DNA from: Agelas oroides
Lineage: Eukaryota; Porifera; Demospongiae; Agelasida; Agelasidae
Direction: 5' to 3'
Length of the DNA stretch: 64,000 bases
NCBI GenBank assembly: GCA_949130485.1
Contig: OX422183.1
Coordinates: 9,514,636 to 9,578,635 of the forward strand
Below, piece by piece: positions 7,294 through 56,839 of the stretch. The translations under genes were made by a program, and so were the position numbers. Each line of letters starts with the position of its first letter. Positions within the stretch are counted from its first letter, which is position 1. The notes under the pieces were generated by a model. It was not told where the DNA came from and searched no databases. It saw nothing but the letters and a program-made list of their open reading frames with translations.

Positions 7294-10200
7294 GTAAACT
7301 TTTGTCAGAATTTGCAGAATTAACCATTTACCTAGGGATTTCTTCAATGACATTTTCCAAATTAGCCCTTTAACTACTAATGCCTTTTTTTGAAGTCAGT
7401 CAGCAAATTTCACATGTAGGTTCTGCACTAAAAACTAACTGTGTTGTACATAATTTAATGATCAATGGGCACACCCATGGTATGTAACCACTGTACTGTC
7501 TTTTTTCCCTCCTGTGCAAATACGGCTATAGGGTACCATTGATTTTACAATTTTTGCAAAATCTACAGAAGATAAGATGATTCTTAGCAACACTCATGAT
7601 CTAAGCATACATTTCTATCACATGCACACTAGCCTAAACACACCCACCTCCCCCTGGAAAGGGTGTCACCCAAAGGGCGACAGCAGATGGCAGTAGTAGC
7701 TGAAAGTACCTGTTGGTGAAGTTTCAAGTGCTAAATCCCAGTAGTCCAAAATACATGCAGTGGCTTCTAGGGTAAGTGGTAAATAGGTTATGTAAATGTG
7801 TGTAAACATTTTTAATGGTCCATTAAGCACTACATGTAAGTCATAAACAAATCTACCAGAAAATATTCTTTGAAGATTGGTGCAAGTGAGCATGCCATGT
7901 GCCATGAAGCCATAATATGAATCCAGATTATGTGGAATATACAAACTTTAACACATGACATAGGCTTGCATAAATGGGTGTGGTACATAAACAGCAATTT
8001 GGGGGTCTTGGGAAGCAATGTACTATCTTTGTCATAAGCATATATAGTTAAGGGTACCTTCTAATGCATATTGGGGGTGTATACTACTAAATGCTTGAAA
8101 GCCTCTGGTTTTGAAGGGGTATCCACCTTCTTTTATTTGGTATACTCTGATTCCATTGTTGGATTAGGTGGGTGTATCTTTCTCTTTACGTAATTGAGGT
8201 ATTGAAAGCTAGTCTACATGAGCATTATCAATCTGTCCTTATATCTCTATAGTTTGTGTATCCATGGCAACCAAGCATGGGGTTACAATACCCGAAGACG
8301 CATGAGATGTGGTCCACTAAACCCTGAAAAGTTCATGATAATTAAAGTGTATGGGTCTTTTTGTTTATGTGCAGTTGAGGCTGGTTGGTGGTGGGCCTGT
8401 GTACACTATTGTTTTGATAGCACTTCTTCCTAAAGAGATAAACTTCTGTCCTTAAGCTTCCTGGCATGTGCTTAAAAGATGTGAGTGTATCCATGGCAAC
8501 CTAGACATGCTGTCACAACACTTAATTGTTCAGAGTACAGAAGGTCATCTGTACCCTCGAACCCAGGCTTTCCGTTCCAGATTTTGTCTCACAGCTTTTC
8601 TCCAAAGCTGCGAGACAAAATCCGGAGCGGAAAGCCTGGGTTAGTGGCTAGGTCATCTATCTGTGCATAGATCTATGGCTGCTGGCCAATAGTTAATTGT
8701 GTGTTATAAAACTTAGCTGACAGTTCATAACAGAGTTCTTACTATACAGACAGTGTGCTGCAATCAGCAGTACTCTGTATAAACACTGTAGTAGCTTGGT
8801 GGCTTCCTTGCCAGCTTCCTTGTTGAGATATATACAATGGCTGTAACCCTACACTGTGATAGAAGTAGGATGTGGTATATATGGGCCAGGGTCCTGCAAC
8901 TGCATGTAAGTGTATCCATGGCAACCTACACATCACAACATTAGCTTACTTGTTCAGTGTACAGAAGGTCATCTGTGCATAAAATCTACAGCAACAAGGT
9001 AGATATTGCTGGCCAGTATGTAGTTAATTGTGTGTTATTAAGACTTGGCTGGTAGTTCATAACAACAAGTGTTCATAAGAGAGTCCTTTACTAGACAACA
9101 ATCAGCAGTGTATGAACACTAGTAGCTTGGTGGCTGTTTTGCACAGCTTCATAGCTGTGATAGCAAGACAGGAAAGGGTGATGTAAGTAAGTGGGACAGC
9201 TTGTTGCCTCCAAACTGTAGAAACTGACTTTGAGGAGAACATAATATTATAGAACCAATGTGTATTGTCTGTGCAGGATGAAGTGCATTGGAATATTGAA
9301 GTGGTCCTATGACTTGCAGTACATGCAGCCGATGAATAGCATTTGTAGAATTCTTTATCATTAATGATTTGCTGTATATCTTAATAAAGGGTTCATGTTC
9401 AAGTAAACAGCTTTTGCATGACATTGTTCAATAGCACTCATGTTTCGTATGCATTTCTAAGGTTTCTTAAGTAAGTGTAAACGAACAGCACATGACGTAG
9501 ATTGATGTAAAGTGCATTGCTAATAATCCATGTGATCAGTGGATTAAGCACTTGTATTAACATTCTGATTACGATACTTAAGAATATGGAGTGTATTGAA
9601 GGGAAAAATGATGAGATGCAGTGCTCTACATTGTCATGTAGCTGCCATTAAACCACACAACTGTGCAAGAAATGCTGAATTCAAAATGGCTCTCTAACCC
9701 ACTCCTCACATCAGTAATGTACACATATGACGTGGGTACATTGACGTAATGTGTAAACAGCAATTTAGGGGGTCCAAGAAAGTATCATTTATCTTGGTCA
9801 TGAAAATAATTTAGAATACACTTGTGGGTGTATGTAGCCTCTATTCCCAGGCCACCCCAGGTGCACCTTTGAACTTGGGCGTGGATAGCAAGTATTCAGA
9901 TTGTGGGGATATTTTGTTCTTATATGTCCCAATGGTGTATTGAAAGTCTGTGCATTATCATGATGTACTTATGTGTTTAGCTGTGTATCCATGGCAACCA
10001 AGATGTGCTGCCATAGTACTGTGTGTATATAGGGAAGACCCATGTGTATGATCTTGAAATCTCATTGGTCCTTATCACATTTTGGGAATATAGAGGCACT
10101 AATTGATACCTGGACACTTAATAAATGTTGTGCTCTTGTTACGCATACAGGGATCCAGCAGACACAAGGAAGTATAGAAATTAGTGGGCTAATGTTTGAT

Positions 10201-16976: not shown

Positions 16977-17899
16977 TTACATGACATTCCTGTTTCTGCA
17001 ACACCAAATGCTATAGGAGCCTTGGATGGTCCGTTTGCAAAGTTCAAACATCAATTTTGTCATCTCACTAGTGGTGATGTTCAAGGTGGTCTTTAGGCGC
17101 TGGAAGCCAGCAGAGTTTATTACTCCTCTGGAGCCAACTTCCAGGGTGATGAGTTCAGTTTCATAACCTGCATTACAGGCTCCAGTGACCAGTTCTTCGT
17201 ACTTTTCCTCCTTTCTCTCAGCTGCTACTTCAAAGTTTGTCTCATAGCTGATCGTCAGTTCAGCAAGCATGAGTGACTTCTGCTGGTCGTCCCACCAAAC
17301 AATGTCCGGGCGAAGATCTGTAGGAACAATGTGCATGGGAAATTCATATCCATCACCGAGGTCGGCAGTTAGTCGGGTGGTTGGGGAAAGCTTGGGTTGG
17401 ATGACTTTTACAATCTCTTGGAGAACTGCATCGTGGCGCTGATTGTACCGCCTAAGGTTTCTAGCCACTTTGCAGTTGTTGAGTACATGTAAGAGGCTCT
17501 GTCTCTCACCACACAGTGGGCAGGCAGCGTTGTCCTTCTTCTTCCACAGCTGCAGGTTGGCATTATGTGGAAGGGTGTCATGTGCAGCATTTAGGGCGAA
17601 CTTCATGGTGTTGGATGGTAGAGCCTGGACCGCCTTTGCCCACACGGTTGCTGTGTCGGAGGTGGTGGTACGGAGCATCTCTCCTTGTTTCTGGAGGTCT
17701 TGCACCTGCAGTAGCCTATCAGCGTCTTCCTGACTTTTGACCTTCCTTTTTGCAGCTGCAGCTAAGGCTTTCCTGCTACGACTGGGATCTTCAGCCAGTG
17801 CATCTCGAACCACCACTGCAGGCTTGAAAATCTTTCTGGTCAGCTGGTCTTCCTTCTGTAGGTGCTTCTCTGCTAGATGGCGTACACATGGATCAATTG

Positions 17900-17905
<6 letters not shown>
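16977..17905 (-). pseudogene. 5'-truncated R2-type non-LTR retrotransposon ORF (C-terminal part)
   Basis: The frame is open from the edge of the upstream GAAA array (17905) to a stop at 16977-16979, giving about 308 codons. Counting from the GTG at 17816, residues 99-115 form a CCHC knuckle (C-X2-C-X7-H-X4-C). Residues 169-186 give RPD-X14-E (RPDIVWW...AELT), the catalytic signature of the PD-(D/E)XK restriction-like endonuclease of R2/NeSL/CRE-type elements. This part nicks the genomic target to prime reverse transcription. The reverse transcriptase domain expected upstream is missing, so the copy cannot move by itself. A 3' untranslated region of about 180 bp follows and ends in GTTTGTTTGAGAGGAAGG, merging into the GAAA array. 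No frameshift is present, so the insertion looks young. Confidence 0.85.
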
Positions 17906-17947
<42 letters not shown>

Positions 17948-18012
17948 TTCTCTCTTTCTTTCTCTCTTTCTCTCTTTCTCTCTTTCTTTCTTTCTCTCTT
18001 TCTCTCTTTCTC

Positions 18013-18089
<77 letters not shown>

Positions 18090-18111
18090 TTCTTTCTTTC
18101 TTTCTTTCTTC
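17906..18111. repeat. TC/TTTC microsatellite
   Basis: About 205 bp: a TC run, then TCTCTTTC units, then a pure TTTC run. On the minus strand it lies immediately 5' of the retrotransposon fragment, with another GAAA-type array immediately 3' of it (16290-16795). Confidence 0.97.
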
Positions 18112-18373
18112 TGTCAGTGTAACTGTCAGCCAGGCTAGCACGATAACAGCTGTAGCTATTACAACGATTCAAACGCGAAAAAAAAACAGCATAAATCACC
18201 GGGTATTGCACTCACTACTTATCGTTATCGTAGAACTCGAACTATTCTTCAGTGATTCTCAAGCACTCCGATGTTAATGCTCAGTGCTATACGCCATTTT
18301 ACTAGAATATCATTATTCATAGCAAGTACGCCCCCCGGAAGTTCGACTGAGCACGTGTTTAGATCTAGCTTAC

Positions 18374-20121: not shown

Positions 20122-21823
20122 AAACCAATGGTGTTAATAATGATACGGACACACCAAACCCTACAGGTACAAATGGTAGTATGTCACCAGAAGCACTTCA
20201 AATGCTCACTTACACCTTACCTGCAAGCCATGATATTGTTTTTTCTCATGTCTCTTGTTCGTAGATGATGCCATCATCGATAACACTACGGTTATTGTGT
20301 CAGCATGTGCAGCAGGTGCTTTCCTCTGTACATGCGTACTCTTTATGGCTTTTGTCATCAAGTGGAACAGTTCAAGAGGTTTATTATTGTGGTTAGACAT
20401 CTCAATAGGTTTCGATATATATATATATTTTTTTGATTATTTATTTATTTATTTTTTGCTTGCATTCATGAATGACAGGTCAGGATGTTGACATGTTGCA
20501 TGAGTGCATTGAAACTGATGTAGAATGAGAAAGCTGCTTTCCCACATTCCAACCTTAGTTTACCACATCTTATAACAGTTTTCAATCTAATATTGGTTGT
20601 GTATCTTGGTTGCCATGACTACATCTGGGCAGTGCTCAGGCTATGAATTTGCCCTTTGCAGTAAACTTTCAATACATCAGAAACTGCCTGTTTTTGAGGA
20701 AGTGGGCCAAAAACAAGGGGGATACCAGCTTATTTTCATTATCAAGGTACATAGTACATGACAATTTTCTTTAATTCAAGTATTTTGGGGATGGCCTGGC
20801 ATGTATGAAAATTCATGGCCTTATAATTACTGCGTTAGCTGCCAGCAGACTAGGCAAAGACAGGAAAGCTGTGAGCAACATGCAGTATCATCACCATCAC
20901 TTTATGCAATCTGCTAGAGTACAATCTACTCTTCTACATTTGTATGCCTTCATTCACTGTGAAACCAAACAACAGTACCTCTAAATCTATCTCAATGTGC
21001 AGCTCAATTGCTTTCAGTACCTCTAAATCTATCTCAATGTGGGGATGTGGAAAATTGATTAGTTTTCTGGAGAAACAGTGATTTTCTGTGTTATGTTTCC
21101 TCTTCAGATAATGTTTCAGTGAAGAAGAGAAGTAGACAGAAGAGGCGGAGACAAGAAAGGAGGACCAAGAAAAAATCAAAAGACAAAAAATCCCAGGAGG
21201 AAGATCTGGAAAATGGTGAACTCCCACCTCCAATCCCTCCTCACACCTCCGACGTGTATATCTCAGCAACAGTCAGTAGCACCTCTACTGCTAGCACTCA
21301 GAGTACAACACTCGACGATGACACTGCTGTCACTGATAGTGTGTTTGGAGACGATAGTATGACTGGCACACCAATCCAAGCACACCTACGTACCATCACA
21401 TTCACAGCCACAATAGAGAATGTTTCTGGTGTGGATCTTGTCTCAGCTCCGCCCATTCCTCCATGTACCAATGAGATGCATTTCCTGGTTAACAACACAT
21501 CTGCCGGCTGTATCAAACCTGCTTCACCTTCAGATAATCTAAGAAGAGGCTATTTTATTACAGATGAACTAGTTGTGGGGAGAAATAGTGACACAGAGTC
21601 CAGATTAGCACAAGATGAATATGAAGCAGACGGATATTGTGAGCCTGCTGATGACACTAGTTCTCAGTCAAGTATTGATATTGGTTTCCCTCCTCCCATC
21701 CCTCCAAAAACTCGTGACATGTTTCTCGTACAAAGCTTTAACCCTAATGACTGCACCACAGTTCAGATTCCTATGAAGCTCAATGGCTCCTACATCCCAG
21801 TAACCAAAACTGCAGTGTCATAG
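20122..21823 (+). CDS. 3' exons of a single-pass receptor with a proline-rich tail
   Basis: Three exons joined by phase-1 introns: 20122-20166 (Thr/Asn/Pro stalk, ETNGVNNDTDTPNPT), 20265-20378 (transmembrane helix VIVSACAAGAFLCTCVLFMA, ending KWNSSR) and 21108-21823 (238 codons with stop). Together they give about 291 residues. The tail opens with a very basic juxtamembrane stretch (KKRSRQKRRRQERRTKKK). It then carries three copies of a PPIPPxTxxM-like motif at 21224-21241, 21446-21463 and 21689-21706, suggesting SH3 or WW ligands. Tyrosines (DEYEADGYCEP) could be phosphorylated. The exon plan (phase-1 stalk, then transmembrane exon, then tail) matches genes A and B, but the tail sequence does not. 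The ectodomain and signal exons were not found, so the gene is partial here. Confidence 0.72.
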
Positions 21824-31871: not shown

Positions 31872-34800
31872 CTACATTGTAAGGCGTACACACTCACACT
31901 GCGTACTTTTGTGTGGTAGTGCTGGAGGGGTTAGATCTGGGATCACTGGCTGAGGGAGGACAGTCTGGTACTGTACAATGTCATCCTCTGGAGGTGGCTT
32001 GATTTTCCTCTGGAGCGCTTCCACGTCAGTATAAACAACACCAGATGACTGCATAATGTAGATTATACAGTAAACCACTTAGATAAAGAACACCTACATC
32101 TCTTTTGTATGAAAGATTGTGATGTACAATGTCATGTCATGAAAATGCCATGCATGTGCTGTCAATTCCAGTGGATCAAAATATTACCGTTTTTTCTTTT
32201 CAAATAAAACGCATGATCCAATCTAGCACAAGAAATTCAATTCTGGGAATTTATGGGTGGATCCAACTTGCCACTAATTAATTTTGGGTTGATCCAATTT
32301 AGTGCTATACCAGGAATGAAGCCTCTTGGTTGTCCCAGTCAGTTTCTTTTGTGGCAACCAAGGGAGGTCAAGAACAATTTCCAGGAAAAAGAGCTATCCC
32401 ATAAATGTTCTACTTTGGGGAGGTTGTCGGACTTTGTTGCTACAGCTGCTACTGTCTTCCAACTACCTCATTTCTGGAGAACTGAAGGCCGGAAACTCTT
32501 GCATCTCTGTGTGACCAAAAATTTTGAATCCATTGCAAGGCATGATCTAATCTAACACAAGAAATTCAATTCCTGGAATTTATGGGTGGATCTAACTTAA
32601 TGCATGCCCACTAATTTAATTTGCATGCATTTTATTCGAATAAATACGGTAATACCGTATTCAATTTCCACATTAAGTAGTTCAAGTACGTATATATAGA
32701 GCAAGTTATAGATCATTAGATTCCTTCCCATTAAACCTAAATGCTGAATCACTACAATAAATTGCAGCTAAGACGTACTTAGGAAACCAGAGTAGGATGG
32801 TCAGATACCATTTCCTACCTGTGCTGGAAGCAGCAAACGTTTAGCATTTGCATACACAGTGATATTTGGTAGTCTCATTCCTAGGCAATCTCATGATACT
32901 GCAAGTGATGATAAACTGGAAGGTCCAGGAAGAAAGCTAATGTCTGGACTTTACTTTATTTACAAGCAGGAAAATGGTGTCTGAGTTCAAATGCTCTGGA
33001 TAGCCTTGCCATTTCTTCAGCTAAGTCATTCACCGTATTTCAGCACTCAGCGCTAAGAGCTTATCATTTGATATTAAAAAGTAAATTAAGTGCTGGCTTT
33101 GTAGCGAACAAAACCTTCACTCAGGTGGTATGTGCACTAACAAATATTTAACATGTTGATTGGATGTTTTGATTTACTTTACCTAGCTTCCTACTAGCAA
33201 AACCATATGGACGAGCATATAACTCTATTTATAGTACAGGTAGAATCACTACAGTAACTATTGAGATACACCCCTTGTCCCCCTTCCATCTTTCTCATGT
33301 ACGTGACTCAGACTCAGCTTGAATGTTGCCCAATTTTTTTTTACCTGTGCCACACCATGGGTGAATTCTTACATGTAGATAATGACAAAACAAAACAAAA
33401 CAAAACAAAACAAAACATAACAAAAACAACAACCATTTGGACGTGCACTGACCACACTTGGAGCTGCTGCAGGTGAGCTTGTGCAAACGCTATATGATCT
33501 ATTCCCTGAAAAAGAGAGAGAAATAGCATTGTATATGTATGTAAAGTATAGTAATACACTGAAGGAGACATCAGAGATACCATTTCTGCTGCCTCTCCAC
33601 AAGGTGAAGCCTACACATGCCACACCTACTGCTGCCATTAGCACCAGTGCTGCAACGGTGACCCCAACAGATAGAGGAACTAGAAATTAAATAGTTAAAC
33701 ATCATTAGCTTGTAAAACAATCAGTTGCTGTACTTGACACTATGCACCTATTTTGATATCTTCTTCTCGTCGAGCTCCATCAGTGACAACAGAATCTGAA
33801 ATGTTCGTGTCAGTTCCAGTGCTGGTAGTAGGAGCGCTATCTGAGCTGTCACTTGTAGTAGGACATTCTGCATGTATATAAAGGAAACAGCATTACATTA
33901 CTTTGATTTAGTCACGATTCAACATGTGATGTGACCTACCAACTTTGATTTCAGTGGGTGAGGACATTCCTGCGCTGTTCCCTGCTCTGATACTGACAAG
34001 AAGACTGCACATGTCCACATTTTGGGGCAGTTTAATTGTAATAACAACATGGGGCCCTGAGTGATGATCATGTTGTACAGTTGTTGTGTTGACTGTCCTA
34101 TCAGAGGTCATCACAGTGATGTGGAAGGAGTTTGGTCTTCTCGTTTTACATGGCTCATTCACCTGTAGAAGTGAATCACTTTTAGCATGACCAAAATGTG
34201 CCACTGCTGAACAGCCAACAAATCATGCATTATAACTGGTGTAAATTGTGGGGCAAGCCTGAGCGAGCATTGCAGAGCAGCATTGTTTGGCTAACTAAGG
34301 CTTCACACCAGTTTTATTACCAGGTTATGCGTGTCTGCAGCTAGAAGAGGTTAAGTCTAGGTTCCTGCTGACCACTATTCACTCTTGCCTGACCTTGTCA
34401 TGCATAGTTCTTACACAAACAGGAGAGGAGTCAAAAAGTCACTATGCATGGTAAATACGTCGTCAGCTATTTGACTTGGAGAATCAAAGAATCTCTGCCG
34501 CTTTCTGCGTTCTGTAAGTAGCCAGGTTTGCTTCCATCCCTCGTACAGCAAATGTTCACGCTCCAGCTAACTCCTCCCAAGTGTCTCTCCTCGCCACCTT
34601 CGCCCACACTCATGACACTGCTCGACAGTGTTGTAGTAATGGTAGTCGTTAATTGTAATTATGCTGTAATGGATTACTTATTGTATTTAATTTTGGTTAA
34701 CTCCACAACAGTAAATATGTAATCATTATACTTGCTTTCCCAGGAATCAATTTGTGCTGTAAACAATATTAGCATGATTACCAAAAATTACAAGACAAAG

Positions 34801-37800
34801 GTCATGCAACATGTGTCATGTTTCAGTTTATAATTACGTTAGTTAAGATGTGGCTTGGCGGAACCCTTCATGTGGTGGTCGAACTTTGAAGATAAGCTTA
34901 GATCGACTTTAAAAAAAAAACAGAGGAGTTTTAGTAGAGTGCTGTAGTGTCAGTAGCTGTGAGTAGTGCGTAATGCCTGCTTGTGAAAGCTAGCTTGTGT
35001 CTAGAAGCAGCAGAAAGGCTACAGTGGCCAAGACTGAACTCAATGGGTAGGCCCAGGTCTTGCGATCGTATACCAAGCCTAGTAGGTAACCGTGGCCTGG
35101 TGCTCCGAGTGCTGGGTTGGGCTTTAACTAGAATGCGCAACATATATCGTTGGTACTATGCTGCTGTAGACAAGAAAGCTCCAGAGGAGTTGTGTGTGGA
35201 ACAGAACCGTGAGTTGTTTAGCGACATAAGGGGGAGAGGTGGGGCTAGTAATGCTTGCTTCCACTCGTGAATGAGCCCCTCCAGTAGACAAGCTGTGAAT
35301 TTTTTGAAATGTGCATTCATTTTGGTGCAGTCAAAGTTGTGACAAACATGCTAACTTTGAGAGTAGCTCTGAACAAAAGCTGGCACAGATTGATTTGAGA
35401 TACATTGGTGGATAGGACGCTACCTAGAGTGAGTGTGTAGATGCGTCCATCGAGTGGCAATTTTGGGTTTATGAATTATATTAATGAGCCACTAAAACCC
35501 TTTTTAAAATTAGGCAGAGCAAGATTGCCCTAAAGCAAACCCTAGCCCTGAAACTAGGAGTAACCCTGGTCCTAACTGTAACCCAAGTTTATGCTTTCGT
35601 TAACCTCTGCCGAAAGACTTCCCCGCCACCTTAATTGCAATTATACCATTTGGCTAGTAAGTAATAATTACAGTTGAAATTTTACATATTAATTTACCAA
35701 GCAGCTTGCTTTGTTTGCAATTACTTCTAAATACAGTAAAACATCCGAACAAAGGACACATTGGGGACAGGCCAGTTGTCCCTTGTAGAGAGGTTGTCCT
35801 CTTCTCGGAGGTTTACCTTTAAACCTATTGGAAATTTCTTAAAGACGAAAAATAACACTTAAATGTATGTATTCTGCTTCATTTCAATGGGTTTTTTTTT
35901 TCAATAGCAATACGGCAAGAGCAACAATACTATATATCATGCTTATACGGAGGTATCCTCTTCGGAATACTTCCGGTAGGCGTGATAATCTGTGATCGGC
36001 TGGCCAGGCTGTTGAATGCGATGAGGTCGCGTTTTCGGACCTCTCCGTTGCTTTATGCTGACAAGAAAGGCTAGAACGATGAGCAATAGTACTAATATAG
36101 TGCTCGGTCTTTGAATCCAGCGACGGTGGCGTTACGAAAGTGGTCGACAAGCCGGTCCGCATTATGTGGGTGTAACTTCACTGTTCGTTTTCGGAGGTAA
36201 TTCTGTATTGGCTAAGGTACGTCGGGGACTGATCAGTGTCCGTTGTTCGGAGTTGAGAGGTGTCCGCTTCTCGGAGGTTCGAAATGTATTAGTTCTATGG
36301 TAAAGTCAATCGGGGGCAAGTGAGCCGTCCGCTGTACAGAGGTTGTCCGCTTTTCGGAGGGTCCGTTATTAGAGGTTTTACTGTAAGTAATGATTGCAAA
36401 ACATCTTCCTTGTAATTAATTGTTGTAATGTATTGTTTTGAAGACTTTTACCGGTTATAATGATTACATTAGGAAATTAATTGACAACAATAGGCCCTAC
36501 TGCTGCTCGTACTGGAAAGTAGCTGCAGAGTACCTTACTGTCTGCATGCGCGCGCGGTTTGCATTAAATTACAGTCTAAGCGTTCAGACATACGGAATAC
36601 GTAATAATTGGGGCGTGAGCGAGCCCACCCAAATTACTTATGTATACGTAAAAGTTATTCAAACTGGGAACTCACATGTAAATCAATAAGTAAATCGTGA
36701 GCTGCTGCTTTACTTATCACAACACTTCCAGCTGCTATGTTGCGAGGAACTATATAGGAAGATATTAGAAAAACAACAAAAACAAACAAACTGAAAACAG
36801 CTAGCCAGATGGTATGTAAAAGCATATTCATGTAACAGTTTTAAGTAGCTTACTTTGTGGACTGCATCCCTGCAATGTCTCACTCCTGTTACTCTCACCA
36901 CCAGCATTCCAAGCTGAGACTTGGTACATGGGGCATAGATCATCATCTTGAATGTTGAAGGTGTATTGTGTCTCTGTTACATTCTTTTGTACAATAATGT
37001 TCCCAGTATATATGTCAGTAATGTACACAGAGTACTGGGTGATGTGAGGGTCCACGTGAACAGTGTCATTGTTCAATGAAGTGTAAGGAGGGTTCCATTC
37101 AATGGTTGAGGAGTTAACCGATTCATTGATGTGAATATGCTCAGGTGGAGAAAGATGACCTGTGCATGGTAAACCAGATTGTAAACAGTTTTGTACTTTT
37201 GAGCTCATGCTTTACCCTCCACTGCTACGTATGTACACACTTGAATGCTCATTCATGCGGAAACCAGTGCAAATACTAGTGGGAATATGTGAAGTATGGT
37301 ACGTCTTCCTAGATAGACTGTAACTAACCTTGAACTAATAGTGTAGTGTTGTGCAGGTACAGGTGTACCTCTCTAGAAACTGTGCAGTAGATAATAAAAA
37401 TACTGCAAGTATGGTTGCCAGTGATTATTAATGTGGCAACGTAATTTAGTTCTTCAGCTCTGATGTCCGATCTGTAACAATCTCCCAGTGTTTCTGCCCT
37501 TCTTCCATTCACAAACCAATTTATACTGTCTGGTCCAGTGCATGTGAACTCTACTGTCACACCAGGGGCTACAGTCATGGCATCGCCACTGATACCTGTA
37601 AAATAAGAACTTCTTACTGCACAAATATAGCGTTACTAACGCCACACTTCTTCATTCAATTTCGGTTTCTAGCTATTTAGCTACTTCTTATTTGTCTCCA
37701 ATTGCATGCACAAATCGTATTTTGTAGCTATAAAATCAAATCAAATTGGCCTAACCTTTGGGAGGCAACAGCATAGGCAACAGGATAGGCAACAGACAGC

Positions 37801-37926
37801 CATTGCATGGTATGTAAATCAATGTTACTGGCTACACAGCAAAGTACATACACAACATGCAGAAAACTAACATCCCGACAGCAAAGCTATTGTGACGATA
37901 AGCCCGAGGCCAGTCGATGTGGGCAT
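31872..37926 (-). CDS. Gene A: Ig-FN3-FN3 single-pass receptor with two ITIM-like motifs
   Basis: Ten exons, in order: 37872-37926, 37329-37595, 36854-37159, 36676-36749, 33940-34162, 33748-33867, 33581-33679, 33434-33505, 32819-32880, 31872-32048. All phases agree and the sum is 485 codons with stop. Residues 1-18 are a signal peptide (MPTSTGLGLIVTIALLSG). Residues 19-107 are an Ig-like domain with FTC, NWFV and NHTC. Residues 108-209 are an FN3 domain (WNPPYTSL, YQVSAWNAGGES), and 210-308 a second FN3 split by a phase-0 intron. A Ser/Thr stalk (309-348) is followed by a transmembrane helix (about 350-374). The tail has YAN (Y415), VVYTDV (Y432) and VQYQTV (Y453), the last two fitting the ITIM consensus. 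It probably binds an extracellular ligand and signals through SH2 proteins. The donor after exon 8 (GTTGTT) is weak. Most similar to gene B. Confidence 0.85.
32182..32656. mobile_element. MITE within the last intron of gene A
   Basis: The ends TATTACCGTTTTTTCTTTTC and the reverse complement of AAATACGGTAATACC give inverted repeats of the form TATTACCG...AATAAAACGCATG. Inside, about 78 bp is repeated directly at 32213-32290 and 32542-32617 (ACAAGAAATTCAATT...ATTTATGGGTGGAT). No coding capacity. Confidence 0.7.
32870..32939. mobile_element. Short MITE overlapping the splice acceptor of gene A exon 9
   Basis: TAGTCTCATTCCTAGGC at the left and CCAGGAAGAAAGCTA at the right match decayed ends of the TAGCCTC family. 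Its 70-bp length matches the 71-bp copy at 40378-40448. Flanks ATATTTGG and ATGTCTGG could be a decayed target duplication. On the minus strand the left end supplies TTGCCTAG|GAATGAGACTA, the acceptor and first 11 bases of gene A exon 9. Confidence 0.6.
35732..36385. mobile_element. pogo/Tigger-like MITE in gene A intron 4
   Basis: TACAGTAAAACATCCGAAC at the left and GTTATTAGAGGTTTTACTGTA at the right are inverted repeats of the CAGTAAAACCTC class, with TA at both outer edges. The subterminal region repeats phrases such as CTTCTCGGAGGTT and TTTTCGGAGGGTCCG. A reverse-oriented relative lies at about 52555-52730. The minus-strand open frame at 35884-36162 lies within the element and has no transposase motif. 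Confidence 0.7.
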
Positions 37927-38347: not shown

Positions 38348-39557
38348 TAGCCTCGTCCCGAGGCCCCGCCCGAAAATCCGGAAAAGGGCCTGGTTTAGGC
38401 CTCAGCACATTATTCTTTTTTTTCCTCCCATTATTCTATTCTCTAATTCCCCAAATAATCCCCTACTAATCTTCTTTTCTTTCTGAAACTTTCTCATACA
38501 AGAACACAATAGTACCATCAGTGTGGTAGCAATTAATACGTACACGCAGTATGCAAATATTGGAGTCCACGTTTATTATATTGAACCATCAGTGTGGTAG
38601 CAATTAATACGTACACGTAGTATTCAACTATTGAAGTCCACATTTGTTATATTGAACCATCAGTGTGGCAGCAATTAATACGTACACGTAGTATTCAACT
38701 ATTGAAGTCCACATTTGTTATATTGAACCATCAGTGTGGCAGCAATTAATACGTACACGTAGTATCCAACTATTGAAGTCCACGTTTGTTATATTGAACC
38801 ATCAGTGTGGCAGCAATTAATACGTACACGTAGTATTCAACTATTGAAGTCCACATTTGTTATATTGAACCATCAGTGTGGCAGCAATTAATACGTACAC
38901 GTAGTATTCAACTATTGAAGTCCACGTTTGTTATATTGAACCATCAGTGTGGCAGCAATTAATACGTACACGTAGTATTCAACTATTGAAGTCCACATTT
39001 GTTATATTGAACCATCAGTGTGGCAGCAATTAATACGTACACGTAGTATTCAACTATTGAAGTCCACGTTTGTTATATTGAACCATCAGTGTGGCAGCAA
39101 TTAATACGTACACGTAGTATTCAACTATTGCTGTCCCCTACATCGTCCAAGGTGTCCATGCCATCGTGCGATTCGTGCCCTTCCATTGCTCACTATGCTC
39201 AGCTCAGCCAGGTTCGTCTGCACATGGCCGTTAGTTCGAACTTTGAACCGTGATTGGGCAAATTTAACCCCGAATTACTCTTTTTTTTTAAAGCACACCT
39301 ATTATTTCCAAAGAAATTCCCGAATAATGTGCGGAGGCCTAGCCTGGTTACACTTGCAAAAATTCCCGTATGTGGTGTGTCAGCCGTCTTCGTTTGGAGT
39401 GGACGAATCACATAATTATTCGTCCATTACTAACTAGTGTAGTGCATGGCATCACATAATTGTTGTATATTATGTTGACTCAGCACATACGAGAAAGTTT
39501 GCAAGTGTGACCAGGCCCCTTTCCTGATTTTTTGGATGGGGCCTGGGGACGAGGCTA
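38348..39557. mobile_element. 1.2-kb composite MITE carrying a minisatellite
   Basis: The ends TAGCCTCGTCCCGAGGCC and GGCCTGGGGACGAGGCTA type inverted repeats (with subterminal GAAAATCCGGAAAAGGG and CCTTTCCTGATTTTTTGG pairing) are flanked by a perfect 9-bp duplication TGGTCTAAT at 38339-38347 and 39558-39566. The interior is largely the 71-bp tandem repeat at 38514-39133. No transposase. Confidence 0.88.
38514..39133 (+). repeat. 71-bp tandem minisatellite, about nine copies
   Basis: Units start ACCATCAGTGTGGCAGCAAT at 38514, 38585, 38656, 38727, 38798, 38869, 38940, 39011 and 39082; the last is truncated. Each contains TACGTACACGTAG. Units 5-8 alternate CCACATTTG and CCACGTTTG, so a 142-bp dimer seems to have been the last amplification unit. 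The outermost first unit is the most divergent. Confidence 0.97.
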
Positions 39558-48896: not shown

Positions 48897-51800
48897 CTAG
48901 TCTTGATGCTCTATCTGAGCATACTGCACAGGGTCATCACTGGCTGGTGGCAGGACTTGAGTCTGTTTCACTGCCTCAAGCTGCGCATACACCAGGTGTG
49001 AACTTGCCACTGGAGCCAGAGGGCTGGGCTGCAGTAAGTGGTCATTTGACCCTTCACTGTCTGTTGAAGGGGGAGTTGTGGTAGAGTCTGATGACTGGGT
49101 CCTGGGTACAGTGTTTTCAGGATCGCTAGCAACTGGTGCGCTTGTGGTCAGTTCACTATTAACATAAACTAACTCAGCTGCAGTAGTTGGAGGTTTGTAA
49201 AGTGGTATTGGTCCACCAAGTGAAGGGCTATGTGTGTAACAAAAATTGTTAAGAGTTAGTAACACTGTAAATGATCACTATTTGGCGTACCTTTCTGAGT
49301 AGTCATTATCCACATAGCCTGTTACATAAGAAGGGGAAGAAATTGAGCTCTTATGATCGTATTAAACTTCATTTTCTCATTCAATTTTACCTTTGTTGTG
49401 TCTGTTCTTATATTTTCTGTAACATATAATCCCAATTACTACTCCAATCAGTGCTCCACCAATGGCTACAATCACTCCGGTGGTAATGGCTATACGAATT
49501 GTATCAATGATCACACAGTTATTAATAAGGTAATGTAATTGATTTGGTTAAGTGAAACTATATACTTCACCTATTAGGGTGGTGCTGCCTTCTTGCTGCT
49601 TGTTGTCACTTTCAGTACCCAGAGTACTGGTGGTAGTGCTGGCAGTAGTGCTGACAGCAGTGGTCTGGAACTCTGTGTTGCCACCTGAACAAACTAAATA
49701 GTAAAGAGAACACACTGGTTTGATTACTTCAGTGTAAATAGAATAAGACCCCCTAAGACACCTGGCTTGAGCTTTCAGTGCTCTGCCACTGAGCTACGTA
49801 CGACAGTCAGACAACCACCACCCCTCACAATCCTCTATATGTATTGCTGTGTTTGATTCCCAGCAGCTGCCAACCTTTTCACTTTCCTCCGTTTTCGTCC
49901 CATAACATCTAAATCTTTATTTCCAAAATGAGGTAAGATGTAAGCAAGGTCCCTACTTACCAACTTCAACTGCTTCACTAGGTGCAGACATTCCGGCACT
50001 GTTTCCTGCACTGATCCTCACAACAGTGGTGCATATATCCACATTTTGGGGTAGACTCACTAGACTGATGGTAAAATCTGCATTTTCTTGTCCTAGTTCA
50101 TGTGTCACGTTTAACTCTCTCAAAATTCTTCCAGTAGAGCTCATTAGTGTGATGAGAAAAAACTCTGGCATTCTACTAACACATGTAGCATCCACCTATG
50201 GGTTAGGAGGAATATTCAAACATTAACTGCATGCTGCCATAAAGTGAATCGTCATGAACTCACATCGATATGAATGTGTACAACATCAGCTTCTAATGTG
50301 AGTGAAATACTCTCAGCCACTATACTGTGAGGAACTGTAATAGATGACAGGAGAGCAACAGTTAAATCTGTTGGAGAGACCTAAAGGCCTACAGTAACAG
50401 TAAGAAAAAATGTCCTTCAGTAACTTGTTTACCTTGAGGTGTGCTGTCCTGTACTGGTTCACTCAATTTACCCTCACCACCAGCATTCCAAGCCGAGACT
50501 TGGTACATGGGACACAGATCATCATCTTTGCTGCTGAGGGTGAAGCTCTCTGTCTTGTTCACACTCCCAATCATCCTCCTGGTATACTGGACATCAATAG
50601 TGTACAGTGTGTAGTGTGTTATGTGGGGGTCCACCTGGATGACATCTGATTCTCTGTTCATTGTGTAGTAGGGAGGTTTCCACTGCAGTTGAGTGGAAGA
50701 GTTCTGAGAACTGATTGTCACACTCTCAGGAGGTGGTAGGGGACCTGTGAGAGTGTGTATGGACATGATCCCATATAACTTATAGCCTATAGAAGGACCT
50801 AAGATTTGTGTCTGGAGCAACTATTCTTGCATGTGCAGTGTTCATGCATGGTTACCTCCATGCAAAGAATGAAAAACTACATTTTGTTGAGTGGTATTCA
50901 GGAATTACGCACTGTTGCTCTCTTCAGAAGACTCATGCTCATCAAAGTATTGTGAGCTACTTGACATGATGGTTTTGGTGAACTGATTATTCAAGCAACT
51001 AATATAGCCAACAGCATTCGCAAGCTGCAGCTCTATGCAACTGTATACAGTGGCCTATAAAACAAAAGATGGATAAGGTAGCTGACAGCAGTTTATTCGC
51101 AGACTTCTACAAACAGCTGCCCTCCTAATGTGCAACTGATGTACTGGACATCATTGCACAGTGTCAGTGATTCTGTATGTACTCATGCACATATGCTACT
51201 GTTTCAAGTGGGCACAAGATCTGCATAAGAACACTGTAGACCCTCGCTCCTCCTGGTTAAGAATCTAAAATGTCTGTAGCAGTTCATGAGCATCCTGAAA
51301 ATTGAATTTCTAGTCCCCATAGTTACCATGGAGAATGATAATGGTTCTACATATCATGCAAGAATCAGTACTTTTGTCTGACTTTGTGCAGCTGTATTGG
51401 GGCTACAAGAACTACGGAAATTGATTCCAAGACTCTGTAATGTGTCTAGCAGACAGAACCTCTTTTCTGTTAGCTATGTGACCCATTTATCAATAGATTC
51501 AGATACCGTTATGCACATAGGTGCATAGTTGTACTAAATTCAGTGTTGTAGTTTTGAGCCCGATACTGGGCCGGGCTTACCATACTTGCTCTTCATCTCA
51601 CCTGGGCTAATCTTGTTCATGTTTGTTCCATCAATGCATTGTATTCTTTCAAACGTACCTCGCTAATCCCACCTCCCTTGTGCATTCACTTCTGACTCAA
51701 TACAGGGGAAGGAAGGCTTTCAAGATGCTGTGGTACGATGATCCCTATCACAGTTTACACGTAAGGTTTTTTGCCATTGTCTCTTGTTGTTTCCACATGT

Positions 51801-52255
51801 ATTGCTACAACCTGTATTGTACCAATACATGTAGAAATATTTGAAATGCATTTTATATGGAATATGCATATCCCATCCATATACACACATATAGTACAAT
51901 TTCCCGTTTTCACCACAAGTGTGGGGCCTTGTGTGAATATTACTTAGCCATCCTTATATGTTTTTACACTAACCTTGAACTGTCAGTGTATTGTTGTGCA
52001 GGTACAGGAATTGTGACTCTCTGTAAATTCTGCAGCAGATATTGAACATACTGCAAGTATGGTTGCCATTGACTGTCAGTGTGTCAGTGGCATTTAGCCC
52101 CCCGGGTCTTCTGAGTCTTGATCTGTAACAATCTCTCTCTGTTTCTGCCCTTCTTCCATTCAACAACCAAGTAGGTGGAAACTCACCATCTGGTCCAGTG
52201 CATGTAAAGTCAACTGACACAGCAGGGGCTACAATCACAACATCACAACTCATAC
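48897..52255 (-). CDS. Gene B: Ig-FN3-FN3 receptor with two ITIM-like motifs (first exon not found)
   Basis: Eight exons, in order: 51974-52255, 50433-50744, 50264-50334, 49961-50195, 49571-49684, 49391-49489, 49291-49318, 48897-49227. Phases agree throughout. The first exon is an Ig-like domain (FTC, TWLLNGRRAE, NHTCSMF). Next are an FN3 (WKPPYYTM, CPMYQVSAWNAGGEG), a second FN3 split at a phase-0 intron (ISAGNSAGMSAPSE), and a 38-codon Thr/Ser stalk. The transmembrane exon has 33 codons, the same as gene A. The tail carries GYVDNDYSE, LVYVNSE (a YxN Grb2-type site), LVYAQL (Y codon 48987-48989) and VQYAQI (Y codon 48921-48923), the last two fitting the ITIM consensus. The acceptor of the transmembrane exon (GTATAG) is weak. 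No signal-peptide exon ending in phase 1 was found above 52.3 kb. Confidence 0.83.
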
Positions 52256-54840: not shown

Positions 54841-55056
54841 CTATAATGAGGTTAAGTCATGAGGGATGGTTAAGAGAATTTGGCTGTATAACGTGTTGTT
54901 ATGGTATTGGAGTGGAGCTTACTAATAGCCAGGTTTGTACCATCTGAGCTAATTAGGTACAGTTCAATAATTAAGGTAAACGATTACCATGCACATTCGA
55001 TATAACTTGCAGCTGAAATCTTAGCTGAATGTTCTTCCATTCAAATTTACCGACCA

Positions 55057-56800
55057 ACTTGATATTCTGAATGCACAGGTAGAGTGGAGTTGATTGATAC
55101 CCAGTTTGTCCCATCTGAGGTTGGTTAGGTCCCATAGGTTTGAAAAACGTTAGGCGATTTAATATTCGATATGGTGTAAAACCATATTTTCCCATTCCAG
55201 CCCACCTCAAACTTGACTTCAGTCAAAAAACAACTTGATATTCTGAATGCACAGGTAGAGTGGAGTTGATTGATACCCAGTTTGTCCTATCTGAGGTTGG
55301 TTAGGTCCCATAGGTTTGAAAAACGTTAGGTGATTTAATATTCGATATGGTGTAAAACCATATTTTCCCATTCCAGCCCACCTCAAACTTGACTTCAGTC
55401 AAAAAACAACTTGATATTCTGAATGCACAGGTAGAGTGGAGTTGATTGATACCCAGTTTGTCCCATCTGAGGTTGGTTAGGTCCCATAGGTTTGAAAAAC
55501 GTTAGGCGATTTAATATTCGATATGGTGTAAAACCATATTTTCCCATTCCAGCCCACCTCAAACTTGACTTCAGTCAAAAAACAACTTGATATTCTGAAT
55601 GCACAGGTAGAGTGGAGTTGATTGATACCCAGTTTGTCCCATCTGAGGTTGGTTAGGTCCCATAGGTTTGAAAAACGTTAGGCGATTTAATATTCGATAT
55701 GGTGTAAAACCATATTTTCCCATTCCAGCCCACCTCAAACTTGACTTCAGTCAAAAAACAACTTGATATTCTGAATGCACAGGTAGAGTGGAGTTGATTG
55801 ATACCCAGTTTGTCCCATCTGAGGTTGGTTAGGTCCCATAGGTTTGAAAAACGTTAGGCGATTTAATATTCGATATGGTGTAAAACCATATTTTCCCATT
55901 CCAGCCCACCTCAAACTTGACTTCAGTCAAAAAACAACTTGATATTCTGAATGCACAGGTAGAGTGGAGTTGATTGATACCCAGTTTGTCCCATCTGAGG
56001 TTGGTTAGGTCCCATAGGTTTGAAAAACGTTAGGCGATTTAATATTCGATATGGTGTAAAACCATATTTTCCCATTCCAGCCCACCTCAAACTTGACTTC
56101 AGTCAAAAAACAACTTGATATTCTGAATGCACAGGTAGAGTGGAGTTGATTGATACCCAGTTTGTCCCATCTGAGGTTGGTTAGGTCCCATAGGTTTGAA
56201 AAACGTTAGGCGATTTAATATTCGATATGGTGTAAAACCATATTTTCCCATTCCAGCCCACCTCAAACTTGACTTCAGTCAAAAAACAACTTGATATTCT
56301 GAATGCACAGGTAGAGTGGAGTTGATTGATACCCAGTTTGTCCCATCTGAGGTTGGTTAGGTCCCATAGGTTTGAAAAACGTTAGGTGATTTAATATTCG
56401 ATATGGTGTAAAACCATATTTTCCCATTCCAGCCCACCTCAAACTTGACTTCAGTCAAAAAACAACTTGATATTCTGAATGCACAGGTAGAGTGGAGTTG
56501 ATTGATACCCAGTTTGTCCCATCTGAGGTTGGTTAGGTCCCATAGGTTTGAAAAACGTTAGGCGATTTAATATTCGATATGGTGTAAAACCATATTTTCC
56601 TATTCCAGCCCACCTCAAACTTGACTTCAGTCAAAAAACAACTTGATATTCTGAATGCACAGGTAGAGTGGAGTTGATTGATACCCAGTTTGTCCCATCT
56701 GAGGTTGGTTAGGTCCCATAGGTTTGAAAAACGTTACGCGATTTAATATTCGATATGGTGTAAAACCATATTTTCCCATTCCAGCCCACCTCAAACTTGA
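55057..56800 (-). repeat. 176-bp satellite array, about ten monomers
   Basis: Monomers begin ACTTGATATTCTGAATGCAC at 55057, 55233, 55409, 55585, 55761, 55937, 56113, 56289, 56465 and 56641, an exact 176-bp period with only a few substitutions. Each contains TATGGTTTTACACCATA and TTGACTGAAGTCAA palindromes. A strongly diverged eleventh unit lies at about 54910-55056. The minus-strand open frames at each end are repeat translations; 176 is not a multiple of three, so no long frame persists. Confidence 0.97.
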
Positions 56801-56839
56801 CTTATTCTGATTCTCAGATTCAGCTTCAGCCACAATGAT

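Follow-up and report, generated by a model that had tools for sequence, protein, structure and literature searches.

A clustered family of Ig-FN3 receptor genes with tandem ITIM tails, differently tailed sister genes and SHP-type phosphatase loci in the sponge Agelas oroides

We analyzed a 64,000-nucleotide stretch of the genome of the sponge Agelas oroides (contig OX422183.1, here C1, positions 9514636 to 9578635; hereafter the window) within an assembly of 259.3 Mb in 141 contigs. Positions without a contig name are those of the window, and family loci are labelled by their position on C1 (e.g., 9504 and 9509). A gene on the minus strand of the window, gene A, probably encodes a type I receptor with one Ig and two FN3 domains. 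It would belong to a clustered, duplicating family of paired receptors, whose members carrying immunoreceptor tyrosine-based inhibitory motifs (ITIMs) would recruit SHP-type phosphatases. We hold this interpretation with moderate confidence. The gene structure, the conservation of the tails, their division into two classes, the layout of the genes and the SHP loci were read directly from the assembly.

The last exon of gene A (31872..32048, minus strand) encodes the motifs VVYTDV and VQYQTV, followed by the stop codon, and tails of the same sub-type were found at C1:10481085 and C1:9701535. ITIMs follow the pattern [ILVS]xYxx[ILV] and commonly occur in twos, 20 to 30 residues apart. Both motifs of gene A are canonical ITIMs, and their tyrosines are 21 residues apart, the spacing stated in a first-pass annotation made from the window alone. 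A paralogue in the same window, gene B, has LVYAQL and VQYAQI, with the tyrosines 22 residues apart. When the tails were shuffled with their composition kept, an ITIM pair spaced by 15 to 35 residues arose in 0.4% of the shuffles for gene A (in its nine-exon form, see below) and in 1.6% for gene B. When spacing was disregarded, at least two motifs arose in 1.1% and 5.1%, respectively; with the latter figure, the tail of gene B taken alone would not exclude chance.

A genome search with the tail of gene B returned 12 matches, which are spread over 10 exons and confined to C1. Together with the tail of gene A, the two A-like tails, a three-motif tail at 9325 and a broken tail at 9409, these gave 15 class I tail exons. 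Both tyrosines were kept in 13 of the 15, and the ITIM pattern was found at both sites in 12. The annotation's remark that the tandem motif was kept in a paralogue was thus correct and understated. It had also stated that orthologues lacking both tyrosines would count against its proposal; applied to paralogues only, this leaves 2 of 15 tails (9245 and 9409) that fail. In a hand alignment of 13 class I tails (9325 and 9409 omitted), valine was found at -2 of the second motif in 13/13, each tyrosine in 12/13, and the two columns of a PP pair were kept in 11 and 13. A MAFFT alignment of 12 tails left only V80 and V101 invariant, with Y81, P94, P95 and Y103 nearly so. Class I tails therefore conserve a tandem ITIM at a spacing of about 22 residues. 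Could the motif be a chance product in a decaying cluster of duplicates, with the array consisting largely of pseudogenes? Decay does occur: the copy at 9380 has many stops, the tail at 9409 is broken, and some of the class II hits described below are weak and partial. Against a general decay, the ratio of nonsynonymous to synonymous differences per site (pN/pS) of the first FN3 domain (FN3-1) was below 1 in all 10 pairs of a five-gene subcluster, and open, phased exons were found in gene A, in gene B and in the exons read at 9504 and 9509. We consider this explanation very improbable.

The family is large. A genome search with protein A returned at least 77 exon matches, all on C1; 25 copies of FN3-1, including the one at 9380, lie at C1 9.08-9.57 Mb, and more family pieces were found at C1 9.70 Mb and 10.13-11.41 Mb. 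Within the cluster, we read 14 stretches lying downstream, together with the loci that the searches brought up. Sister genes in it carry a second class of tail (class II), for example DKLKKREIEMKPNQAYETVTLP...PCPAYEVVVQAHH, with AYETV and AYEVV as typical tyrosine sites. Searching the genome with this tail gave 24 matches, 22 on C1 (17 of these at 9.09-9.51 Mb) and 2 on C12. Both tyrosines stood in one frame in 11 of the 14 stretches read, 18 to 23 residues apart. Only one of the resulting 22 sites has the ITIM pattern; position +3 is occupied by V at 20 sites, by I at one and by A at one. The sites also do not fit the pattern of the immunoreceptor tyrosine-based activation motif (ITAM). No charged residue was seen by eye in the transmembrane helices read, so that neither a canonical ITAM nor a charged-helix activating partner was found. 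Class II-like tails were also observed outside the cluster, at C12:8972722, C12:8975894 and C1:16790849 (two of the three were read), and perhaps sit on other receptors.

The contrast between the two classes bears on another explanation, in which ordinary adhesion molecules use the tyrosines as YxxPhi signals for endocytosis and the likeness to ITIMs is incidental. The YxxPhi pattern, with V, I or L at +3, is indeed also present in the motifs of class I and in all but one of the 22 class II sites, the exception being YERA, the second site at 9144. However, sorting would need neither the valine at -2 of the second class I site (13/13) nor the near-fixed spacing of the two sites. The -2 residue is missing from 21 of the 22 class II sites, and the classes differ mostly where the ITIM and YxxPhi patterns differ. 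We therefore regard the endocytosis explanation as improbable, and retain the reading of class I tails as tandem ITIMs.

Next, the layout of the two classes was examined by ordering 28 tail exons at 9.08-9.57 Mb by position, with the unsettled tails 9100 and 9155 omitted. In all seven pairs of convergent tail neighbours, a class I tail was joined by a class II tail, a result reached in 0.6% of label shuffles, or in 1.2% when five weak class II hits were left out. Class II tails lay on the plus strand in 16 of 17 cases and class I tails on the minus strand in 9 of 11 (Fisher test, 7e-5; 6e-4 without the weak hits). One of the seven pairs uses the broken 9409 tail, and another includes the class II tail 9268135. 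In the pair 9504/9509, the Ig exons were 98% identical, the FN3-1 exons 95% and those of the second FN3-like domain (FN3-2) 89%, while the tails differ; both tail types were read in phase from a phase-1 donor of the transmembrane exon. This pair of linked genes thus combines similar ectodomains with different tails, as in paired receptors. The pairs 9401/9409, 9369/9375 and 9430/9437 were also close in their ectodomains. We considered whether every convergent pair has matching ectodomains and rejected this, since it fails for 9314/9325 and 9233/9245. In a tree of FN3-1 with 24 rows (12 class I, 9 class II and 3 unlabelled), the tail label changed 8 times (7 to 9 in bootstrap replicates), at least 4 changes being forced by well-supported branches, and the mean for shuffled labels was 7.1. 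The tail label is no more clustered than a shuffled one; therefore, ectodomain and tail are unlinked in their history.

A tandem-SH2 phosphatase is encoded in the genome. The order SH2-SH2-PTP was found at five loci, defined by the order of exon matches with the exon pieces read unspliced. Four of these loci lie on C3 (1.39-1.48 Mb), and the fifth is on C28; all are SHP-type. With FLCR, FLVR and the P-loop HCSAGIGR, the C28 copy keeps the two SH2 arginines and the HCxxGxxR signature of SHP (PTPN6/PTPN11). SHP-2 was the first match of its C-SH2, closer than SHP-1, with the stretches VGGG and EHYKKNPMVET in common; for its PTP piece, single-domain SHP-2 ranked below two-domain receptor phosphatases. 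The C3 copies are altered in different ways: 1477k has FLVQ in the N-SH2 and an R-to-H change in the P-loop, 1446k an altered WPD loop, 1424k FLVY in the C-SH2 with an intact P-loop, and 1397k a catalytic C-to-S change, WPH, and FLVH in the C-SH2. Changed P-loop residues were thus found in two and a changed SH2 arginine in three of the five copies read. The SHP-type loci occupy C3:1.378-1.477 Mb, in tandem, and C28:37-41 kb; the altered copies are possibly pseudophosphatases, decoys or decaying copies. SH2 pieces were also seen at C3:1.383 Mb and suggest an additional SHP copy. The C28 locus, whose contig spans 72 kb, might represent the C3 cluster on another haplotype. SH2 and kinase matches were also found in one open frame, for example at three consecutive sites on C17.

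Taken together, these elements are consistent with the following mechanism. Engagement of the Ig domain by a ligand would lead a Src-family kinase to phosphorylate both ITIM tyrosines. A sponge SHP would then bind both phospho-ITIMs through its two SH2 domains and open, and the opened phosphatase would dephosphorylate signalling begun by class II sisters or by other receptors linked to kinases. How a cell responds to self, non-self or a microbe would depend on the balance between the signals of the two classes. The ligand, the phosphorylation, the SHP binding, the inhibition and the opposed function of class II are all predicted from sequence. The first-pass annotation had proposed an inhibitory receptor logic for this organism. 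The tandem ITIM kept across most of the family, the SHP-2-type loci and the sisters with different tails argue for that logic, of which the inhibition itself is presumed. A role in allorecognition is a natural guess, because ITIM- or ITAM-type tails occur on allorecognition receptors or candidates of Botryllus and Hydractinia; control of symbionts or microbes would be as compatible with the data.

The tail might, alternatively, recruit SHP as a positive adaptor, in receptors that serve adhesion or growth rather than inhibition. SHP-2 promotes Ras/MAPK signalling, the C-SH2 of the best-kept SHP copy is the one closer to SHP-2 than to SHP-1, and the tail of gene B also has a YVN site, which we take to be a Grb2-type motif. 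However, different tails on near-identical ectodomains fit opposed signals better than a single growth signal, and we judge a purely positive role rather unlikely.

Several points weigh against the interpretation of gene A as an inhibitory member of a paired family. SHP binding need not mean inhibition, because SHP-2 is often a positive regulator, and the ITIMs overlap YxxPhi sorting signals. Class I tails are not strongly constrained overall, with a median ratio of nonsynonymous to synonymous substitution rates (dN/dS) of 0.62. In the tail at 9245, F and H stand in place of the two tyrosines; the tail at 9409 is broken, and that at 9437 has G at -2 of the first motif. In the key pair, the second class II site of 9504, LAYGVV, fits the ITIM pattern, so that the difference there is between a tandem ITIM and a single one. 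The layout figures overstate independence because the paired units are copies of each other. Tails were assigned to ectodomains by strand and nearness, with those of 9100, 9144 and 9155 not settled, and an ectodomain for the class II tail 9268135 was looked for and not found. Of the six pairs with both ectodomains, 9314/9325 in all three domains and 9233/9245 in both FN3 domains were no closer than many non-partners. Finally, all the evidence comes from a single assembly.

A more elaborate proposal, which we put forward as tentative, is that of a sponge complex resembling natural killer (NK) receptor complexes. It would be made of tail-to-tail ITIM/non-ITIM units that swap tails through the common phase-1 boundary, with the fastest change in the Ig domain and with a co-expanded SHP readout including altered, possibly decoy, members. 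In vertebrates, the paired receptors KIR, LILR, SIRP, PILR and FcRL have near-identical ectodomains with opposed tails, tandem ITIMs, SHP recruitment and fast turnover, and the activating partner has either a charged transmembrane residue with an ITAM adaptor or an ITAM of its own. The sponge family likewise has near-identical ectodomains with different tails, and tandem ITIMs, and would share SHP recruitment and fast turnover. Unlike the vertebrate partner, the class II tail itself bears a pair of tyrosines, which lie outside the ITAM pattern.

Comparable receptors are known in other animals. In Botryllus schlosseri, the FcoR of the fuhc locus are clustered type I Ig receptors in paired genes, with tails bearing ITIM, hemITAM or YxxI/L/V motifs, and homologues of SHP-1 and of Src- and Syk-family kinases are expressed (PMC12065747). 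Their ectodomain consists of a V-Ig, a sushi and two C2 Ig domains, and each FcoR pairs with a protein of the fester family; fester and uncle fester have no known signalling domain (PMC12065747). The gene A family resembles FcoR in its clustered type I Ig receptors, ITIM tails and gene pairs. The sponge partners, in contrast, share the Ig-FN3-FN3 plan and differ in the tail, and the V-Ig/sushi/C2/C2 order was not found in them. Hydractinia Alr forms a cluster of single-pass Ig-superfamily receptors with at least 41 loci (PMC12065747, PMC11067881, PMC11999971); its ectodomain consists of V-set and I-set Ig domains (PMC11999971), and ITAM and ITIM motifs are found on Hydractinia candidate genes (PMC12065747). 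Compared by descriptions rather than sequences, Alr and the sponge family are both Ig-superfamily receptor clusters with ITIM motifs in a basal animal; the V-set/I-set ectodomain, and the known polymorphism and genetics, set Hydractinia apart. Both a tunicate and a cnidarian are thus reported to bear ITIM- or ITAM-type motifs on receptors for allorecognition or on candidates for this role (PMC12065747).

The aggregation factor is a candidate for sponge self-recognition, and Grice reportedly described it in 2017 as a candidate self/non-self system (cited in PMC12065747). As an extracellular proteoglycan (PMC11999971), it differs from the gene A family, a set of ITIM receptors, while being likewise a sponge self/non-self candidate. 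A literature search covering few subscription papers returned no report of sponge ITIM receptors or of an SHP expansion, which is weak evidence of absence. Clustered ITIM-tailed Ig receptors are already known; what is new here is the ectodomain, the tail-to-tail pairs and the multicopy SHP with altered active sites. The class II partner tail, which appears to be mostly neither ITIM nor ITAM, is part of this novelty. The opposed-tail logic would thereby extend to the sponge branch. If true, an NK-like complex would trace opposed-tail recognition back to the root of the animal tree or close to it, or would show that it evolved there anew. The tail pairs and the SHP copies allow direct tests of the intracellular side of sponge self-recognition.

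The ectodomain had been annotated as an Ig domain and two FN3 domains; the Ig domain and FN3-1 stood, and FN3-2 had no match in Pfam. Whole proteins A and B gave no Ig match in Pfam and an fn3 match only in B, at an E value of 0.86. We therefore relied on exon profiles. A profile from 15 paralogous Ig exons, in which the columns C, W, L, N and C are invariant, matched 492 Protein Data Bank sequences at E values up to 1. SYG-2 was the best match (5e-6), and nearly all of the best 60 of the 492 were named as Ig-superfamily chains. Of the single Ig exons, 6/15 matched Pfam Ig_3 (best, 0.0023); gene B's own Ig exon had no Pfam match. A structure model of that exon, from a two-sequence alignment, had a pLDDT of 74 and weak structural matches (best E value, 0.058), nearly all of the 50 matches listed being Ig-superfamily, major histocompatibility complex or T-cell receptor chains. 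All 12 FN3-1 exons compared matched Pfam fn3 at E values up to 0.1 (best, 1.1e-5), with that of gene B below the curated cut-off, and the structure model of FN3-1 was of low confidence (pLDDT, 64). The Pfam check that the annotation had suggested was thus nearly silent for whole proteins, and the exon profiles settled Ig and FN3-1. The second domain is called FN3-like only from where it lies and from its AGNSAGxSxP end. At C1:9393-9438 kb, four of five close paralogues lack the first Ig cysteine, and their Ig domains may be without the usual disulphide.

The domains change at different rates. Over all pairs with dS of 0.05 to 1, the median dN/dS was 0.70 for Ig, 0.62 for the class I tail, 0.52 for FN3-2 and 0.39 for FN3-1. 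In the five-gene subcluster, the pN/pS of Ig was above 1 in 10/10 pairs (lowest, 1.03). Positive selection on Ig was considered and not retained: with two contrasts chosen as independent and summed, Ig differed from FN3-1 at p=0.017 but from neutrality at p=0.06. Therefore, our claim is limited to a faster protein change in Ig.

Gene A runs from the ATG at 37926 to the stop codon at 31872, with GT-AG introns throughout and every junction in phase. Exon 1 (37872..37926) encodes a signal peptide recognized by eye, MPTSTGLGLIVTIALLSG, and is in phase with exon 2 (37329..37595), the Ig domain. Exon 3 (36854..37159) encodes FN3-1, exon 4 (36676..36749) the start of FN3-2 and exon 5 (33940..34162) the rest of it; neither of the latter two matched Pfam, and paralogues of exon 5 were found. 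Then follow exon 6 (33748..33867), a Ser/Thr-rich stalk, exon 7 (33581..33679), the transmembrane helix, with 99 nucleotides as in gene B, and exon 8 (33453..33505), the membrane-proximal tail. With its transmembrane helix, likewise recognized by eye, and its signal peptide, the product has the features of a type I membrane protein with an Ig-type ectodomain. The annotation had joined ten phase-consistent exons, including a YAN site in exon 9 (32819..32880), into one open frame of 484 residues. Its coordinates, strand, splice sites and phases stood; exon 9 is doubtful. The ten-exon model needs a donor of exon 8 at 33434 that, under approximate splice donor weights, scores -4.2, the worst in the gene; exon 9 is in frame only with this donor. 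Another donor, in phase 0 and lying 19 bases before it at 33453, scores 1.56 and joins exon 8 in frame to the ITIM exon. A nine-exon gene is likelier because of these scores, and the transcript probably lacks the YAN site. The only genome match of the YAN exon was gene A itself. Just upstream of gene A, at 38514-39130, lies a tandem array of 71 bp in 8.7 copies at 97% identity.

Gene B lies 11 kb upstream of gene A on the same strand, and its exons, beginning with that of the Ig domain and ending with the stop codon, follow the same kind of plan, all junctions being in phase; its exon 1 was looked for and not found. Its exons encode the Ig domain (51974..52255), FN3-1 (50433..50744), the start of FN3-2 (50264..50334) and its remainder (49961..50195), the stalk (49571..49684), the transmembrane helix (49391..49489), a small tail piece, YVDNDYSE (49291..49318), and the tail proper (48897..49227), in which LVYVNS precedes the tandem ITIM and the stop codon. 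A second tandem array in the window, at 55055-56803, has 9.9 copies of 176 bp at 99% identity.

Other signalling genes were also observed. Exons for phosphatase domains are very numerous at C1:6.4-7.0 Mb, C12:4.8-6.7 Mb and C18:0.50-0.60 Mb (at least 180 matches when 150 of 330 candidates were scored). FN3 matches accompany them at C1 6.6-6.9 Mb, C12 5.1-5.5 Mb and C18 0.48-0.59 Mb, which looks like a large expansion of receptor phosphatases. Kinase-domain clusters at C8:4.86-5.93 Mb and C15:1.23-1.49 Mb, with many domains in long open frames, are possibly an expanded receptor kinase family. Within the window, a long open frame on the plus strand (21059-21823) has three PPPIPP/PPIPP motifs and resembles a cytoplasmic tail with SH3 ligands; copies of it were found at C1:9489923 (89% identical) and C1:10662009 (45%). 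On the minus strand, an open frame at 16977-18113 has the pattern CPLCG...HVLNNC, which resembles the end of a retroelement polyprotein.

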